A stretch of DNA of 52,260 nt, taken from the NCBI GenBank assembly GCA_024228555.1, contig JAAETI010000801.1, positions 1-52,260 of the forward strand, in the 5' to 3' direction. Origin of the DNA: a bacterium (GTDB lineage Bacteria; Actinomycetota; Acidimicrobiia; Spongiisociales; UBA5794). Every line of letters starts with the position of its first letter. The first letter of the stretch is position 1. Below the pieces are notes generated by a model. That model searched no databases, was not told the DNA's origin, and worked only from the letters and a program-made list of their open reading frames with translations. The position numbers and the translations under genes were made by a program. This document shows, in pieces, positions 2,515 to 34,176 of this stretch.

Positions 2515-3486
2515 GTGACTGTTACCGCTGAAGACCTTCAGTGGTTCGGAAAGAGTTTTGGCGCGATCGTTGACAACATCGAGACCGTCATTCAAGGTAA
2601 GCGCCGCACGATCGAATTGGCAACGATCTGCTTGCTGTCCGAAGGCCACACTCTGATTGAGGACGTCCCAGGTGTCGGCAAGACCCTTCTTGCCCGATCG
2701 TTGGCGAAGTCGATTGATTGCAGTTTCCAGCGAATCCAATTCACCCCCGACCTTCTGCCGTCGGATGTGACAGGTGTTTCCGTATGGGACCGCGAATCAA
2801 ACCACTTCGTCTTCCGCCCCGGACCCGTCTTCGCCAATGTTGTACTTGGCGATGAGATCAACAGAGCGAGCCCGAAGACACAGTCGGCGCTACTCGAGGC
2901 GATGGAAGAGCGTCAGGTCACGGTTGATGCCGTCACCCGGCCGCTCGCCGCACCATTCATGGTGGTCGCCACGCAGAACCCGATAGAACACGAAGGAACT
3001 TACCCGCTGCCAGAGGCACAGCTCGACCGCTTCATGATGCGGCTGGGCATGGGATATCCCGAACGGGACAAGGAACTGGAGATGCTCGAAACCCACGGGC
3101 ACCACTCCACTCTCGAAGATCTCGAGCCAGTCGTTGACGCCGCAGACGTGAACCGGATGGTCGACATTGCTGCCCGGGTATACGTTGCGGACGCAATCCG
3201 CTCGTATCTGGTCGACTTGTCTGACGCCACTCGTAACGACCCCGACTTGCTGCTGGGGGCATCGCCGCGGGCGACGCTCTATATGCAAAGGGCAGCTCGC
3301 ACCAATGCGGCAACAGAGGGAAGGGACTTCGTGACACCCGACGACGTCAAAGAGATGCTCCACCCGGTCCTCAACCACCGGTTGATCCTGCAGCCCGAGG
3401 CACAGATGCGGGGCTCAGGGGTCAGGAGCATCATCGATGCGATCAGCGACCGGGTCGGAGTACCTGGCGCCCGTACCGGCGTCTAG
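2515..3486 (+). CDS. MoxR-family AAA+ ATPase
   Basis: The 323-residue product is a MoxR chaperone-type AAA+ ATPase. Visible are Walker A DVPGVGKT (residues 50-57), Walker B VVLGDE (109-114), the TQNPIEHEGTYPLPEAQLDRF sensor-1 and arginine region, and a C-terminal lid with the GASPRA motif. MoxR proteins are thought to remodel or mature partners encoded beside them, usually DUF58 and VWA proteins. Here the DUF58 gene follows with a TAGTG overlap and then a transglutaminase gene, the classic trio. The frame extends upstream to 2140, but the GTG at 2515 has AGGAAGGAG at ideal spacing and yields the normal family length. The upstream extension is antisense to the 2152-2406 gene. Confidence 0.9.
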   Translation: MTVTAEDLQWFGKSFGAIVDNIETVIQGKRRTIELATICLLSEGHTLIEDVPGVGKTLLARSLAKSIDCSFQRIQFTPDLLPSDVTGVSVWDRESNHFVFRPGPVFANVVLGDEINRASPKTQSALLEAMEERQVTVDAVTRPLAAPFMVVATQNPIEHEGTYPLPEAQLDRFMMRLGMGYPERDKELEMLETHGHHSTLEDLEPVVDAADVNRMVDIAARVYVADAIRSYLVDLSDATRNDPDLLLGASPRATLYMQRAARTNAATEGRDFVTPDDVKEMLHPVLNHRLILQPEAQMRGSGVRSIIDAISDRVGVPGARTGV

Positions 3487-26679: not shown

Positions 26680-27897
26680 TCAGGAGCGCTCGAGCCAGGC
26701 CGCCAACGACTCGGACCAAAGCACGACGGCCCCGTTTGCTTCGGCGCCGTCGCGCACCGCACGATCACTGGAAATGACTACGACCCGCGATAGCTCGCTT
26801 GTCATCTCAACTATCTCTTCGTCCGCGATGCGGTCCTTGTCGGCGAAACGCACTTCAACCCCGCCGAGGGATGTTCTGGCGATTCGCTCTCCGGGAAGCG
26901 TTGAGTCATAGATAACGACGATCCGGTGTTTCCGCACAGATGCGGTACGCAGCCGCTTCAGCGCATCGACGAGACGTCGCCGTGCTCCCCCGGAGGTGAA
27001 GTCCTTGTCGTCAATGTGAAATTGGGCGTTGTAGCCATCGACAAGAACAACAACACCTTCGGGTAGGCCAACCAACCACCGGATCGCATCAGAGGAATCG
27101 GGTCTGACTCCCGACGCCATCGTGAGTTCACCGACTTCGACCGGCGCTACGACGGGCACCACCCCAGCATCGCGGCCCAGAGCCGCTGCCTGCAGATCCA
27201 AGAGTCGTGCCAGCTTCACAGGATCGCGGGGAACAAAGCTCGATTCCCCCTGCGGGCCATGCTCCTCGAACCTCTCGCGGCGTGCCTTGAGTAGTCGCGA
27301 TCGCAACACATCAAAAGCGTCCTGGAGCTGCCGATGCTCGGAATCGAGTTCAGCTAGCTGACTCTGCGTCTCGGCGAGCTCGTTCCTCACATCGGTCACG
27401 TCGGCTACCGAAGCCGCAAATCGATCTTCCACCTTCTTGCGCGCCGACTCAGCAGCCCTCTTGGATTGACGCTCCGCCTCGGCCAGCGCTCTCTTGCAGT
27501 CGGCAGCCTTCTTGATGGCGACGTCGCGCTTGGCCTCGACCTCGAGAAGTTGACTTTCCAGCTTGCCGAACCGCCGCTCCTCTTCACCAGCGCCCTTCGC
27601 CACAACCACCTCGCCGAGTTCGATCCACCAACCATCGGCTCGATTGAGGAACAGATCGGATGGACTGCCGGGCTCACCATCAAACTCCTCAACAACCTTG
27701 TCGCGGAACCATTCGTTCTTGTCGATCTCCCCAAGCAACCTGCTCGCCAACGGCGGCGGCAGCCTGCCCCCCTGGGAAGAGGCGACCCTCACCAAGGCAG
27801 ATGGCACTTCTTTGATGTCGAGGTCGCGCAATGCACTTCGCCCCGCACCAATCGCATCGCTCAACACTGTTAGCCAGATCCCACCGAAACCGCTCAT
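26680..27897 (-). CDS. NYN-domain ribonuclease with central coiled coil
   Basis: The 405-residue protein has three parts. An N-terminal helical region of about 90 residues (LPPPLASRLLGEIDKNEWFRD) is followed by a coiled coil at about 105-220, rich in Glu, Arg, Ala and Lys. A C-terminal NYN/PIN-like nuclease domain of the YacP type (VVVLVDGYNAQFH, RKHRIVVIYDSTLPG, VRFADKDRIADEEIV, VVISSDRAVRDGA) carries the conserved acidic residues. YacP (Rae1) of Bacillus cleaves mRNA at the ribosome; here a long coiled coil is added, so RNA decay or ribosome binding is only inferred. The start is uncertain (ATG 27897 or upstream). Confidence 0.75.
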   Translation of the reverse strand: MSGFGGIWLTVLSDAIGAGRSALRDLDIKEVPSALVRVASSQGGRLPPPLASRLLGEIDKNEWFRDKVVEEFDGEPGSPSDLFLNRADGWWIELGEVVVAKGAGEEERRFGKLESQLLEVEAKRDVAIKKAADCKRALAEAERQSKRAAESARKKVEDRFAASVADVTDVRNELAETQSQLAELDSEHRQLQDAFDVLRSRLLKARRERFEEHGPQGESSFVPRDPVKLARLLDLQAAALGRDAGVVPVVAPVEVGELTMASGVRPDSSDAIRWLVGLPEGVVVLVDGYNAQFHIDDKDFTSGGARRRLVDALKRLRTASVRKHRIVVIYDSTLPGERIARTSLGGVEVRFADKDRIADEEIVEMTSELSRVVVISSDRAVRDGAEANGAVVLWSESLAAWLERS

Positions 27898-27955
27898 GCC
27901 CCCATCATGGCGCGTCGATACGCAACACACGGCGATTGTTCAGCCGGCTATGGAC

Positions 27956-27983
27956 TTGACACCACCTGCCGGACTGTCATACT
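27956..27983 (+). promoter_or_regulatory. Promoter of the ilvBNC-leuAB operon
   Basis: TTGACA (27956-27961) and CATACT (27978-27983) are separated by 16 bases, a good vegetative promoter. Transcription would begin about 15 bases before the leader peptide ATG. Confidence 0.65.
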
Positions 27984-28004
27984 CGCCCCCCACAGAAGGA
28001 TCTC

Positions 28005-28046
28005 ATGACCGCAACCAACCACACCACCCTCGTACTTATTGACTAG
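28005..28046 (+). CDS. ilv leader peptide (attenuation)
   Basis: A 13-codon frame encodes [13 protein letters not shown]. It has AGAAGGA at good spacing before the ATG and four successive branched-chain codons, CTC-GTA-CTT-ATT (Leu-Val-Leu-Ile), just before the stop. Three Thr codons are also present; threonine is the isoleucine precursor. With a terminator 34 bases downstream and ilvB next, this is the layout of ribosome-mediated attenuation: stalling at Leu/Val/Ile codons when the charged tRNAs are scarce would prevent termination. It is not annotated by length-filtered gene finders. Confidence 0.75.
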
Positions 28047-28080
28047 GCGCAGACGTCGCCAGACGTCAACATGCGCCGAC

Positions 28081-28104
28081 AACCCTCCAGCCGGAGGGTT
28101 TTTT
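28081..28104 (+). terminator. Intrinsic terminator (ilv attenuator)
   Basis: AACCCTCC-AGCC-GGAGGGTT is a perfect 8-bp stem with a 4-base loop, running into six T residues (28099-28104). It lies between the leader peptide and ilvB. Upstream, GGCGCA (28046-28051) and TGCGCC (28072-28077) can form a competing stem with two GACGTC copies between them. A classical antiterminator pairing with the terminator's left arm is not obvious. Confidence 0.8.
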
Positions 28105-28141
28105 CATATCCCGACCAAGACAGGCAGCCCAGGAGACCGAG

Positions 28142-29860
28142 ATGAGCGAAACGCTTACCGGAGCACAAGCACTGATAAAGGCCCTCGAGCACGAGGGGGT
28201 AGACGTGATCTTTGGTATGCCGGGCGGTGCAATCCTCCCCGCATACGATCCCCTCTATGACAGCCCCATCCGTCACGTCTTGGTACGCCACGAGCAAGGC
28301 TCCGGCCACATGGCGTCGGGCTACGCCCACGCCACGGGACGAGTGGGTGTCTGTCTGGCCACCTCAGGCCCCGCCGCCACCAACCTGATCACTCCGCTGC
28401 TCGACGCCTACATGGACTCGATCCCGGTCGTTGCCATCACCGGACAGGTGGCCCAGACCTCAATCGGTATGGATGCATTTCAAGAGGCCCACACGTGGGG
28501 CATCTCAATGCCGGTGACCAAACACAACTATCTGATCACCAACGTTGACGAAATTCCCGATGTCATTCGCGAGGCTTTCCATCTTGCCGCCACCGGTCGT
28601 CCCGGTCCGGTGCTCGTCGACGTCCCCAAGGACATACTCAACGACACGTTGGTCTGGCATAAGCCGGGCGAGATGAACCTGCCCGGCTACAAACCGAGCG
28701 TGAAAGGCCATCCCAAGCAGGTGCAGTCGGCTATCGACATGATCCACTCCGCACAGCGTCCGGTTCTCTATGCGGGCGGCGGCATCATCAGAGCGAACGC
28801 CTCTGATCGGCTCCGGCGGTTTGCGGAGCTGAGCAACCTGCCGACAGTGACAACTCTCATGGCCCGCGGCGCAATCCCCGATTCGCACGAATTGGCGCTG
28901 GGAATGCCCGGCATGCACGGCAACTACACCGCGATAACGGCGATGCAGAAGGCCGACCTCCTCATTGCCATCGGGGCCCGATTCGATGATCGGGTCACCG
29001 GTAACGTTGCAGCGTTCGCCCCCGAGGCAAAGGTCGTCCATGTCGATGTTGACCCTGCAGAGATCGGAAAGGTCCGCAATGCCGATGTTCCGATCGTCGG
29101 CGATGCCGATGCGGTCCTCGAGCAGTTGACGTTTGCGATGGAGCATTTCCTCGGGTCAGACCCGGCCCCGGCTCGCACCGAGTGGATGGAAACCCTCGCC
29201 GGTTGGCAAAGGGACTTCCCGCTCGCCTACGAGCAGGACCCCGAGGGACCGATCCAGCAGCAATACGTCATCCAGGAGATGCATCGGATCACCGGCGGTG
29301 ACGCCGTTGTTGTGGCCGGCGTTGGACAGCATCAGATGTGGGCGTCACAGTTCTGGGGCTTTGAGAAGCCACGCACATGGATCAACTCAGGCGGCTTGGG
29401 AACTATGGGATACGCCATCCCAGCTGCGATCGGGGCCAAGGCCGGTGCGCCCGATGAGCTGGTAATCGCCTTCGATGGTGACGGCTGCTTCCAGATGACG
29501 ATGCAAGAACTCGTCACAGCCAGCGTCGAGAAGATCCCGGTCAAGATCATGGTTCTCAATAACTCTTGGCTCGGGATGGTCAAACAATGGCAGAAGCTGT
29601 TCTACAACAAGAGATACAGCGCAACGGACCTCACAAGTCATACCCCGGATTTCGTGGGGCTTGCCGAAGCGATGGGTTGCGCCGGTATCCGCGCCGAAAG
29701 GCCTGAGGAAGTGGGGCCGGCAATCGAAAAAGCCCTGGCCATCAACGACCGCCCCGTTGTCGTTGAGTTCAAGTGCGATCCGGACGCCATGGTGTTCCCG
29801 ATGGTTCCTGCAGGTGGTTCGAATGACGACGTTGTCCTGAGCGCGGAGGATTTGGCATGA
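28142..29860 (+). CDS. ilvB: Acetolactate synthase large subunit
   Basis: The ThDP- and FAD-dependent enzyme makes acetolactate or acetohydroxybutyrate, the first common step of valine, leucine and isoleucine synthesis. The 572-residue protein has Glu51 ([14 protein letters not shown]) for ThDP activation, FAD-region [12 protein letters not shown] and the Mg-ThDP motif GDGCFQM...[12 protein letters not shown]. Length and motifs are normal. It is the first structural gene after the attenuator. Its 3' end overlaps ilvN (ATGA), coupling the two subunits. Confidence 0.97.
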
Positions 29861-30387
29861 GTAGACCAAACAACATCAGCCAGCACGTCATCACGGTCAC
29901 GGTCGAAGACAAGCCAGGAGTCCTGGCAAGAGTCTCTTCGATGTTTGCGAGGAGAGGATTCAATATCCACTCACTGGCGGTCGGTCCCACGGTCGACCCG
30001 AGTCTGTCTCGGATCACCCTTGTCGCTGACGGTCCGGAGATGGAACAGATCATCAAACAGCTCTACAAGCTCGTGAACACAGTGAAGGTGACCGAGCATC
30101 CCGCAGGCGCCTCCATCGAGCGCGAGATCATGCTGGTGCGGGTCAACGCGGACTCGAAACGCCGCGGGGAGATCCTCGACGCTGCGGGCATCTTCGATGC
30201 CAGGGCAGTTGATGTGGGCAAGATGACAATCACCTTCGAACTGGCCGGTGAGCCGGGGCGTCTTGCCGACTTCCTAGAGCTAATGCGCCCATACGGGATC
30301 GTCGACCTGGTTAAATCCGGTCGCATCGCCCTAGCCAGAGATCCCAAGACCAAGAACGGACGCCAGCCCGAGCTGCGCTCCGCATGA
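29857..30387 (+). CDS. ilvN: Acetolactate synthase small subunit
   Basis: The 176-residue regulatory subunit starts with an ACT domain ([36 protein letters not shown]), which binds valine for feedback inhibition, and has the usual C-terminal activating domain ([36 protein letters not shown]). It overlaps ilvB by 4 bases and lies 28 bases before ilvC. Confidence 0.96.
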
Positions 30388-30415: not shown

Positions 30416-31432
<1,017 letters not shown>

Positions 31433-31551: not shown

Positions 31552-33102
31552 ATGGCATCAGCCCTGACCGACAAACTGATAATTCTCGACACCACCCTGC
31601 GCGACGGCGAGCAGGCACCCGGAATCGCACTGTCCCCCGACGACAAGGTGGCAATCGCCCATCAACTGGCTCGTCTCCAGGTAGATGTAATCGAGGCCGG
31701 TTTCGCCGCGTCATCCCCAGGCGACCATGAGGCAGTCTCTCGCATTGCCAACGAGGTCAAAGGACCGGTCATTGCCAGCCTTGCCCGCACCCACCCCGAC
31801 GACATCGATGCCGCAGCCGATGCGGTGAAGGGTGCTGCCCGGCAGCGCATCCACGTGTTCATCTCGACCTCGCAGATTCACCGCGAACAGATGCTGCGGA
31901 TGTCCGAAGAAGACGTACTCAAAGCGATCACCGAATCGGTGACGAGAGCAAAGCGATACTGCGACGATGTCGAGTTCTCTCCTCAGGACGCCACTCGTAC
32001 ACACCCCGACTTTGTTGTCGAGAGCTGCCGCAGAGCTGTTGCAGCAGGAGCTACGACCATCAACATCCCCGACACAGTCGGCTATGCCGTCCCCTCGGAC
32101 TTCGTTGCATTGATGGAACGGGTCTACAGCGACGTGCGAGGGGGCAACAACGACGTGGTTGTTTCGACCCATTGCCACAATGACCTCGGTCTCGCCGTTG
32201 CCAACTCGCTGTCGGCGATCCATGCCGGCGCCCGCCAGATAGAGGGAGCCATCAACGGTCTCGGAGAGAGGGCAGGCAACACGTCCACAGAAGAGATCAT
32301 CATGGCGGTCAAGACCCGCGAGGACTATTTCGGCGTCAAAATCGGTGCCGACACGACCCAGCTGTTCGAGACATCGCGATTGGTCGCACAACTCACCGGT
32401 TACCCGATCCAATACAACAAAGCGATCGTCGGCAGGAATGCGTTCGCCCACGAATCGGGGATCCACCAGCACGGAGTACTGCGGGACCGGGAGACCTACG
32501 AGATCATGGATCCGGCGTCGATCGGTCACGCCTCAGCCATTGTCCTTGGCAAGCATTCGGGGCGGGCTGCCTTTGCCGATGCTCTAGCCAACATGGACAT
32601 CGCTTTGGAGGACGACGACTTCAAGGCAGCGTTCGATCGCTTCAAAGAACTCGCCGACCGCAAAGGCGAGATCTCTGAGGAAGGCGTCCGCGCCATCGTC
32701 AGCGAAAAGACCAGTGTCGCTCCCGACACCGTTGAACTGGTCGGCATCCACTTCTCCGGCGGTACCCAGGAAGTACCTCTCGCTACCGTCAGTGTCCGCC
32801 GCAACGGCGACACCATCGAAGTGAACTCTGAAGGGGACGGCATGGTAAACGCTGCCTTCGGAGCCCTGCGTGACGTTTTCGAGATAGAGGCAATACTGCT
32901 CGACTACAGAGTCAGCCCTCTCACCTCGGGGGCCGACGCTTTGGCCGAGGTCAACGTGATCATTCAGGTTGCGTCGGAGACGTACTCCGGGCGCGGTGTT
33001 TCAACAGACGTTGTCGAAGGCTCGGCGCGTGCATTCACCGCCGCACTCAACAAGGCTGCGTTTGAGGCAGCCGCCATAGGTAGACAAGAAGGATCTGACT
33101 GA
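31552..33102 (+). CDS. leuA: 2-isopropylmalate synthase
   Basis: LeuA condenses acetyl-CoA with 2-oxoisovalerate, committing carbon to leucine. The 516-residue protein has the TIM-barrel start LDTTLRDGEQAPGIAL, the metal site STHCHNDLGLAVANSL, NGLGERAGNTSTEEI, ESGIHQHGVL and a C-terminal regulatory domain (about 390-510) for leucine inhibition. The length fits the E. coli-like type, not the longer type usual in mycobacteria and Streptomyces. Citramalate synthase is an alternative, but operon context favours LeuA. Confidence 0.93.
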   Translation: MASALTDKLIILDTTLRDGEQAPGIALSPDDKVAIAHQLARLQVDVIEAGFAASSPGDHEAVSRIANEVKGPVIASLARTHPDDIDAAADAVKGAARQRIHVFISTSQIHREQMLRMSEEDVLKAITESVTRAKRYCDDVEFSPQDATRTHPDFVVESCRRAVAAGATTINIPDTVGYAVPSDFVALMERVYSDVRGGNNDVVVSTHCHNDLGLAVANSLSAIHAGARQIEGAINGLGERAGNTSTEEIIMAVKTREDYFGVKIGADTTQLFETSRLVAQLTGYPIQYNKAIVGRNAFAHESGIHQHGVLRDRETYEIMDPASIGHASAIVLGKHSGRAAFADALANMDIALEDDDFKAAFDRFKELADRKGEISEEGVRAIVSEKTSVAPDTVELVGIHFSGGTQEVPLATVSVRRNGDTIEVNSEGDGMVNAAFGALRDVFEIEAILLDYRVSPLTSGADALAEVNVIIQVASETYSGRGVSTDVVEGSARAFTAALNKAAFEAAAIGRQEGSD

Positions 33103-34176
33103 GTGGAAGCTTCATTTGTACTCCTGCCCGGCGACGGGATCGGCCCCGAGGTAACCGCGGCCGCACATGCAGTGTTGCAGACAACCGGAAGCCGTTTTGG
33201 GCACCGATTCGAGTTCGAATCTCGCCCGATGGGTGGCATCGCCATCGATGAGTTCGGAGATCCGCTGCCCACTTCCACCCTCGATGCCTGTCGCCGCGCT
33301 GATGCAGTGATCCTCGGCGCCGTCGGCGGACCGAAGTGGGATGATCCCAACGCCAAGACACGACCCGAGGCCGGTCTGCTGAGTCTGCGCAAAGAACTGG
33401 GGCTCTTCGCCAACCTACGCCCAATAACCGCACACGCCGAACTGATTGACGCCTCGCCCCTACGACGCGAGCTCATCCAGGGGGTCGATATCCTCTTCTT
33501 CCGCGAGCTGACCGGCGGTATCTACTTTGGTCGCTCTGCACTCAGCGAGGACGGGCAGCATGCGGAAAGCGTCATGGAGTACACCGTCCCGGAGGTCGAA
33601 CGCATTGTCCGGATGGCGGCATCCTCCGCTCGAACCCGACGCGGCAAGCTGACCTCGGTCGACAAGGCGAACGTTCTCGAGGTCTCCCGCCTCTGGCGGC
33701 GGGTGGCCGCGCGCGTGATGGCAGAGGAATTCCCCGACGTCGATTACGAAGTTGTGCTGGTCGACGCCATGGCCATGCACCTCATTGCCCGCCCTAAGGA
33801 CTTTGATGTCGTTGTGACAGGCAATCTGTTTGGCGACATCCTCACTGATGAAGGTTCGATGCTGCCGGGGTCGCTTGGCATGCTGCCGTCGGCGTCGCTC
33901 GGAGACAGCCAACCGGGTCTGTACGAACCGATTCATGGTTCGGCCCCTGACATTGCAGGCAAAGATACGGCCAACCCTCTCGCAACCATTCTGGCCGCGG
34001 CGATGGCGCTACGGCACTCGATGGAGCTGGAAACTGAGGCGGCCGCAATCGAGGATGCGGTGGCAGCAGTGTTGGCGTCTGGTCTACGGACCAAGGACAT
34101 CGCCGCCGGCAAGCCCGCCGTTGGAACCGTTGCGATGGGAGAAGCGGTCGTCGCCGCACTCGCTGCGGCGTCGTAA
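33103..34176 (+). CDS. leuB: 3-isopropylmalate dehydrogenase
   Basis: LeuB oxidatively decarboxylates 3-isopropylmalate. The 357-residue protein shows [26 protein letters not shown], the substrate loop [65 protein letters not shown] and the NAD-binding [20 protein letters not shown]. The GTG start abuts the leuA stop (TGA-GTG). Isopropylmalate isomerase genes leuC and leuD are not in the window. Confidence 0.96.

Follow-up and report, generated by a model that had tools for sequence, protein, structure and literature searches.

The locus described here raises the question of how an operon for the synthesis of branched-chain amino acids may be switched by a leader whose terminator faces no visible antiterminator of the standard kind. 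The window, by which we mean the whole stretch of 52,260 nucleotides that was analysed, contains this operon behind a short leader for which an earlier note on the same DNA had proposed attenuation through a leader peptide.

The leader and its operon in the window

The operon is located on the plus strand in the order ilvB-ilvN-ilvC-leuA-leuB. It encodes the large and small subunits of acetolactate synthase (ilvB, 28142..29860, with its ATG at 28142, and ilvN, 29857..30387), ketol-acid reductoisomerase (ilvC, 30416..31432), 2-isopropylmalate synthase (leuA, 31552..33102), and 3-isopropylmalate dehydrogenase (leuB, 33103..34176). The best NCBIfam models all exceeded their cut-offs and agreed with the gene identities proposed earlier. 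A divergent gene on the minus strand (26680-27930) starts only ~25 bp from the -35 box of ilvB; judging by eye, we take its C-terminal half to be similar to NYN/PIN-type nucleases.

All the leader elements lie on the plus strand. Transcription is predicted to begin from a sigma-70-type promoter (27956..27983) consisting of the -35 box TTGACA (27956-27961), a spacer of 16 nt, and the -10 box CATACT (27978-27983) extended by a preceding TG. With 10 of 12 positions matching the consensus, this was the sole such site within 1 kb, while 0.2 were expected from shuffled sequences. A TTGAC/-10 pair was likewise found upstream of the leader ORF in most relatives. The leader ORF (28005..28046) starts with the ATG at 28005 and has 13 codons, the last of which are CTC GTA CTT ATT GAC, followed by the stop codon TAG (28044-28046). 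Four of these (28029-28040) specify Leu-Val-Leu-Ile and are read as the control codons. The sequence AGAAGG (27994..27999) is a possible ribosome-binding site of this ORF.

The first hairpin, P1 (28046..28077), which was recognised by sequence, folding, and covariation, begins with the G of the TAG stop codon. Its outer stem is formed by the exactly matching GGCGCA (28046-28051) and TGCGCC (28072-28077), and its inner stem by the equally exact GACGTC-GCCA-GACGTC (28052-28067); P1 also contains an AACA bulge. Only 3 nt (28078..28080) separate P1 from the intrinsic terminator, and the two share no bases. The terminator (28081..28104) has the sequence AACCCTCC-AGCC-GGAGGGTT, with the hairpin at 28081-28100 and a run of six T residues at 28099-28104. 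The ribosome-binding site of ilvB, AGGAG, follows at 28131..28135, and the stop codon of the leader ORF is thus ~95 nt away from ilvB, with the terminator in between. The folding energy of the 117-nt leader was -35.8 kcal/mol (z = -4.7), and none of 200 shuffled sequences was equally stable.

These readings verified the promoter, the four successive branched-chain codons, and the terminator stem with its T6 tail that had been listed in the earlier note, and placed both the GGCGCA/TGCGCC stem and the paired GACGTC copies inside P1. The 13-codon frame was also confirmed, while the ribosome-binding site that had been called good turned out not to be conserved in relatives. Within the genus of the window, the inner P1 hairpin hardly varies, and locus L009 keeps part of it; elsewhere, other sequences take its place.

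Conservation and covariation of the two hairpins

The leader was compared across the order, the class, and the phylum, as had been suggested for checking the attenuation proposal. For the comparison within the class, IlvB homologues were gathered by protein similarity from 60 relatives and from named genomes (strain IMCC26256, Microthrix, and Actinomarina among them), mostly titled Acidimicrobiia, so that the ilvB loci were found through the protein and not through the leader motif. The parsing script required a stop codon after a frame rich in branched-chain codons, a hairpin near this stop, and a terminator behind it. The leader was recognised by the script at 112 of the 118 ilvB loci (112 of the 116 parsed) across Acidimicrobiia. 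At three more loci (L100, L122, and L133), which were missed by the script, the layout was visible by eye.

A recognisable leader was therefore missing at 3 of the 118 loci. One of these, L126, lacks an evident codon run although its hairpin and terminator are present, while at the other two (L067 and L068, set aside before parsing) no such leader was present upstream of ilvB. Homologous leaders devoid of the Leu/Val/Ile codons or of the terminator, which the earlier note had named as evidence that would speak against attenuation, thus did not emerge as a pattern.

Beside the terminator, a hairpin resembling P1 with 7 or more pairs was found in 82% of the real leaders, compared to 6.7% of dinucleotide-shuffled sequences. 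A hairpin was also located upstream of 4 of 14 other terminators, a small control set. Among the 108 distinct leaders of the class, 104 kept a run of Leu, Ile, and Val codons containing GTA. Meanwhile, a Shine-Dalgarno-like sequence was seen in just 7 of the 45 relatives with a recognisable promoter, and in about half of these 45 the leader ATG was located 4-15 nt downstream of the -10 box. Since such sites are few and the ATG lies so close to the -10 box, many leader ORFs are probably leaderless.

In family f8 of the same order, four genomes (G043, G050, G056, and G333) had no leader in spite of their genome completeness of 96-98%. No IlvB match was obtained in G043 and G050, and G056 gave a marginal match only; these four organisms are possibly auxotrophs for branched-chain amino acids.

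To examine the helices themselves, a covariance model was built from 16 leaders. A MAFFT alignment of 30 leaders had misplaced the left arm of the terminator, and a cleaner subset was chosen for the model. In the resulting alignment of 92 leaders of several gene families, 95.5% of the cells held standard pairs, and 186 two-sided changes were counted in 18 of the 19 pairs covering both hairpins; these figures lean towards the model, as the alignment itself was fitted to it, and the counts ignore kinship. None of 500 shuffles reached the observed pairing, and pairing fell to 38-62% in the controls with slid partners. The pair types also varied, as in one P1 pair where CG, UA, GC, and AU all occurred. 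Because sliding destroys the pairing and the pair types vary, we conclude that the P1 and terminator helices are both real.

At both the gathering and the relaxed thresholds, Rfam returned nothing above threshold, including the ppGpp riboswitch, T-box, and ilvB-OMG families, and the top match below the threshold was Phe_leader (23.2 vs 55 bits). A 23-nt piece of the leader gave no match in viral contigs. Among open-licence papers, we found none on leaders preceding cimA or on leaders in Acidimicrobiia, and nothing relevant on helices abutting a terminator.

Control codons and the downstream genes

The covariance model detected the same layout elsewhere in the genome of the window and across the phylum; as the abutting layout was already contained in the model, other layouts would have escaped the search. 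Five doubtfully parsed leaders of the third round, including L258, L269, L270, and L290 (leuS-like), were excluded by hand. The control codons differed with the gene behind the leader. Namely, the ilvB leaders (n = 154) contained 280 Leu, 291 Val, and 103 Ile codons, while the cimA leaders (n = 52) contained 158 Ile, 6 Val, and 5 Leu codons. Leu codons prevailed in the leaders of leuS (14 Leu and 1 Val, n = 6) and leuA (39 Leu and 1 Val, n = 10). The chi-square test of codon against gene gave ~1e-100 with kinship ignored, and our argument is the qualitative pattern seen over many families and unrelated enzymes. Citramalate synthase feeds the isoleucine branch and LeuS charges leucine; the control codons thus correspond to what the enzyme encoded downstream makes or uses.

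The genome of the window itself contains three such leaders, with the codons LVLI before ilvB, III before cimA, and LQL before a second leuS. The second copy (L140, G000:C162, minus strand, ~3300-3410) encodes the leader MKQPNGFIIIR and is located upstream of citramalate synthase, identified with TIGR00977 at 670.8 bits vs the cut-off of 450. The third copy (L217, G000:C574:42262-42339) encodes MKTNTRLQLM and precedes a second, diverged leuS gene. The identity of leuS was verified for one partial ORF, for which TIGR00396 was the best model with 478.8 bits over the part present; the remaining leuS genes were assigned by similarity to this ORF or by the start of their ORFs. In the upstream stretch that was read for the main leuS gene (C394), no such leader was seen. 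One genome thus has two leuS genes and a candidate Leu attenuator on one of them.

The choice of synonymous codons was also uneven. GTA accounted for 192 of the 291 Val codons of the ilvB leaders, compared to 9.6% in eight genes of the window, and CTC and CTT together for 231 of the 280 Leu codons. Judging from the excess of GTA, selection acts on the codon and not on the residue alone, and the sensing of particular tRNAs appears to be favoured over the sensing of the peptide.

This pattern bears on two other explanations of the leader. It could be the relic of an unregulated premature terminator, but its retention in the class and the phylum, its covariation, and its gene-matched codons make this the least credible of the alternatives weighed here. 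It is scarcely more plausible that P1 is read by a protein or a small molecule instead of the ribosome, or that the leader ORF drives reinitiation at ilvB. A protein was proposed for the LEU element of leuA (PMC1262725), and reinitiation from a leader gene was proposed for Actinobacteria (PMC4833913). However, the control codons vary here with the downstream gene, the sequence of P1 itself varies with covariation, no riboswitch or T-box was matched in Rfam, and the terminator stands in the ~95 nt between the stop codon and ilvB.

Ten loci (L235, L237, L251, L265, L280, L293, L300, L302, L307, and L308) carry the leader with codons of the Val-Ile-Ile type before LeuB-like dehydrogenases, 34-42% identical to the LeuB of the window. 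These enzymes are possibly the (methylmalate) dehydrogenase of the isoleucine branch.

P1 and the terminator as a proposed switch

The product-codon-rich short ORF, the intrinsic terminator before the first gene, and the codons matching this gene are all features of attenuators. We consider it likely that the leader is a ribosome-mediated attenuator that responds to how far the tRNAs for Leu, Val, and probably Ile are charged, with P1 as its ON element; the weakest step is the steric one described below. For the attenuation first suggested from the window alone, there is strong support in how the leader is conserved, in its covariation, and in the agreement between control codons and downstream genes, from which we infer the regulation itself.

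In 131 of the 235 leaders, P1 starts on the last base of the stop codon, and the first GTA codon is located at a median of 14 nt (range 9-20) upstream of P1. The leading edge of the ribosome was taken to be 12-14 nt beyond the codon in the A site, and the coverage was computed with 14 nt. A leading edge of ~12 nt has been quoted (PMC4833913), and a ribosome mask of 26 nt was applied to the leader of M. tuberculosis (PMC13236596). Under a shortage of Leu or Val, a ribosome stalled with CTC or GTA in its A site would have its edge at the foot of P1, so that P1 would be spared and folded and the polymerase would continue into ilvB. When amino acids are ample, the ribosome would reach the stop codon within the foot of P1 and cover ~11-13 nt of its left arm. 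P1 would then melt and the terminator would act. The positions suggest that P1 is the ON element, and it should be ON because the reverse sign would express the operon amid plentiful amino acids. Against this reading, a ribosome halted on the final branched-chain codon would by then overlie ~5-7 nt of P1, and altering the candidate codons of the ilvB leader in S. coelicolor was reported to be without effect (cited in PMC1262725).

How P1 would oppose the terminator was examined by folding 108 leaders with the ribosome positions masked. The median probability of the terminator was 0.994-0.997 in every masked state, and with P1 masked it was below 0.5 in only 3-4% of the leaders. P1 and the terminator thus coexist thermodynamically, and the masking of P1 leaves the terminator unchanged. 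These folds revealed no antiterminator that uses bases of either terminator arm, the hallmark of trp-, his-, and leu-type attenuators, which extends to the whole family the missing standard antiterminator noticed earlier in the window. Only in close relatives of the window can ACCCTC, at the leader codons, pair with GAGGGT in the right arm of the terminator; this pairing is weaker than the terminator and would have the wrong sign.

Across the 235 leaders, the gap between P1 and the terminator was 0-5 nt in 206, and this concentration was not imposed by the search, since the script permitted gaps from -3 to +17 nt, although the presence of a hairpin and a terminator was. In family f27, outside the class, the gap was nearly always exactly 0. 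No bases were shared by the two hairpins in 216 of the 235 leaders (~92%), and the other 19 had an overlap of 1-2 nt. If P1 is ON, then the exclusion does not proceed by base sharing, and since the two hairpins are compatible and masking is without effect, it must come from the polymerase or from kinetics. We favour steric exclusion as the likeliest way: a preformed P1 lying directly against the foot of the terminator on its 5' side would block the closing of the last terminator pairs in the exit channel of RNA polymerase. P1 would thus be an antiterminator by its position, with no bases in common with the terminator of the window.

The rare overlaps could instead point to attenuation of the classical kind, in which an antiterminator that shares bases, or a pseudoknot, is hidden in the leader. 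The hairpins of C. glutamicum overlap by 3 nt, and in our folds the right arm of the terminator could pair upstream (mean 0.63) once the left arm was removed. We regard this as improbable, as the left arm itself seldom paired upstream (a mean of 0.06 when the codons were masked and P1 was left free, and of 0.24 when the full leader was considered), the terminator dominated every masked state, and most leaders have no common base at all.

The spacing of the hairpins also admits an attenuator of the same kind in which P1 serves as a pause or synchronising hairpin for the polymerase and the terminator is ruled by the coupling of the ribosome and the polymerase. According to the gap and the stem length, P1 ends ~10-13 nt before the loop of the terminator in most leaders, a spacing that resembles that of pause hairpins. 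Pausing was also assigned to the first hairpin by the authors of the C. glutamicum study (PMC11857589). Pausing alone gives no cause for read-through under stalling, and the tight fit of P1 to the stop codon and the terminator exceeds what a pause needs, so we consider this role unlikely, although it is the strongest of the alternatives.

The nearest known case to the steric arrangement that we prefer is the ilvBNC leader of Corynebacterium. In C. glutamicum, the control codons are CUU and GUA, the transcription start site is one base from the leader ATG, and the antiterminator (36-79) and terminator (77-113) hairpins overlap by the trinucleotide GCC (PMC11857589). The near-leaderless peptide with its CUU and GUA codons, the adjacent hairpins, and ilvBNC downstream are common to that ilvBNC/ilvB-II motif (PMC11857589, PMC10272879) and to our leaders. 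However, the 3-nt overlap decides the choice in C. glutamicum while here there is usually no common base, the antiterminator begins inside the ORF while P1 begins at the stop codon, and the third hairpin covering the codons is absent here. The ORF-overlapping hairpin and the shared boundary of the ilvB-II motif are thus replaced in the window by P1 at the stop codon and the 3-nt gap.

The ilvB1NC leader of M. tuberculosis resembles ours in its LVVI codons with a regulatory GUA, in the terminator ~40 nt before the gene, and in the proposal that its antiterminator, the ON structure, is blocked when a ribosome stands on the stop codon; the change of LVVI to AAAA abolishes induction (PMC13236596). 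The leaders of C. glutamicum and M. tuberculosis both work in the direction proposed here. Unlike here, its terminator and anti-terminator are mutually exclusive by description. Leaders of ilvB in Corynebacterium, Mycobacterium, and Streptomyces, for which the exact mode was left unclear, and leuS attenuators in Streptomyces were described by Seliverstov et al. in 2005 (PMC1262725). The latter candidates likewise combine a Leu peptide with a terminator before the leucyl-tRNA synthetase gene, but they were presented as classical attenuators in which the antiterminator is a distinct structure, whereas here a stop-anchored P1 abuts the terminator. The LEU element of actinobacterial leuA (PMC1262725) is set apart by its description as a pseudoknot in which Leu codons pair with the Shine-Dalgarno box of leuA, while in the window the terminator stands between the codons and the gene. 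The ilv, leu, and trp attenuators of enterobacteria have the leader peptide, control codons, and terminator in common with our leaders, but in them the left arm of the terminator is shared with the antiterminator. By its codons, terminator, and specificity, the leader of the window fits among ribosome-mediated attenuators, but it does not fit the classical ones in the sharing of bases.

Attenuation is usually taught as the competition of two helices for the same bases. We tentatively propose that the leaders before ilvB, cimA, leuS, leuA, and the leuB-like genes may form one phylum-wide class of actinobacterial attenuators, in which a stop-anchored ON hairpin would disable the terminator by abutment and only the codons would be swapped. 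In this large natural series, codons, terminator, and the hairpin anchored on the stop codon are all retained while the shared bases are lost, making purely positional antitermination directly testable; the 3-nt overlap of Corynebacterium may be one end of the series. The covariance model detects a regulator absent from Rfam, and the gene-matched codon swaps assign amino acid specificity to operons of uncultured Actinobacteria.

In family f19, which belongs to another class, seven loci (L225, L228, L230, L234, L236, L248, and L250) have an extra ~400 nt between the leader and ilvB with room for a small ORF, and their leader ORFs look longer.
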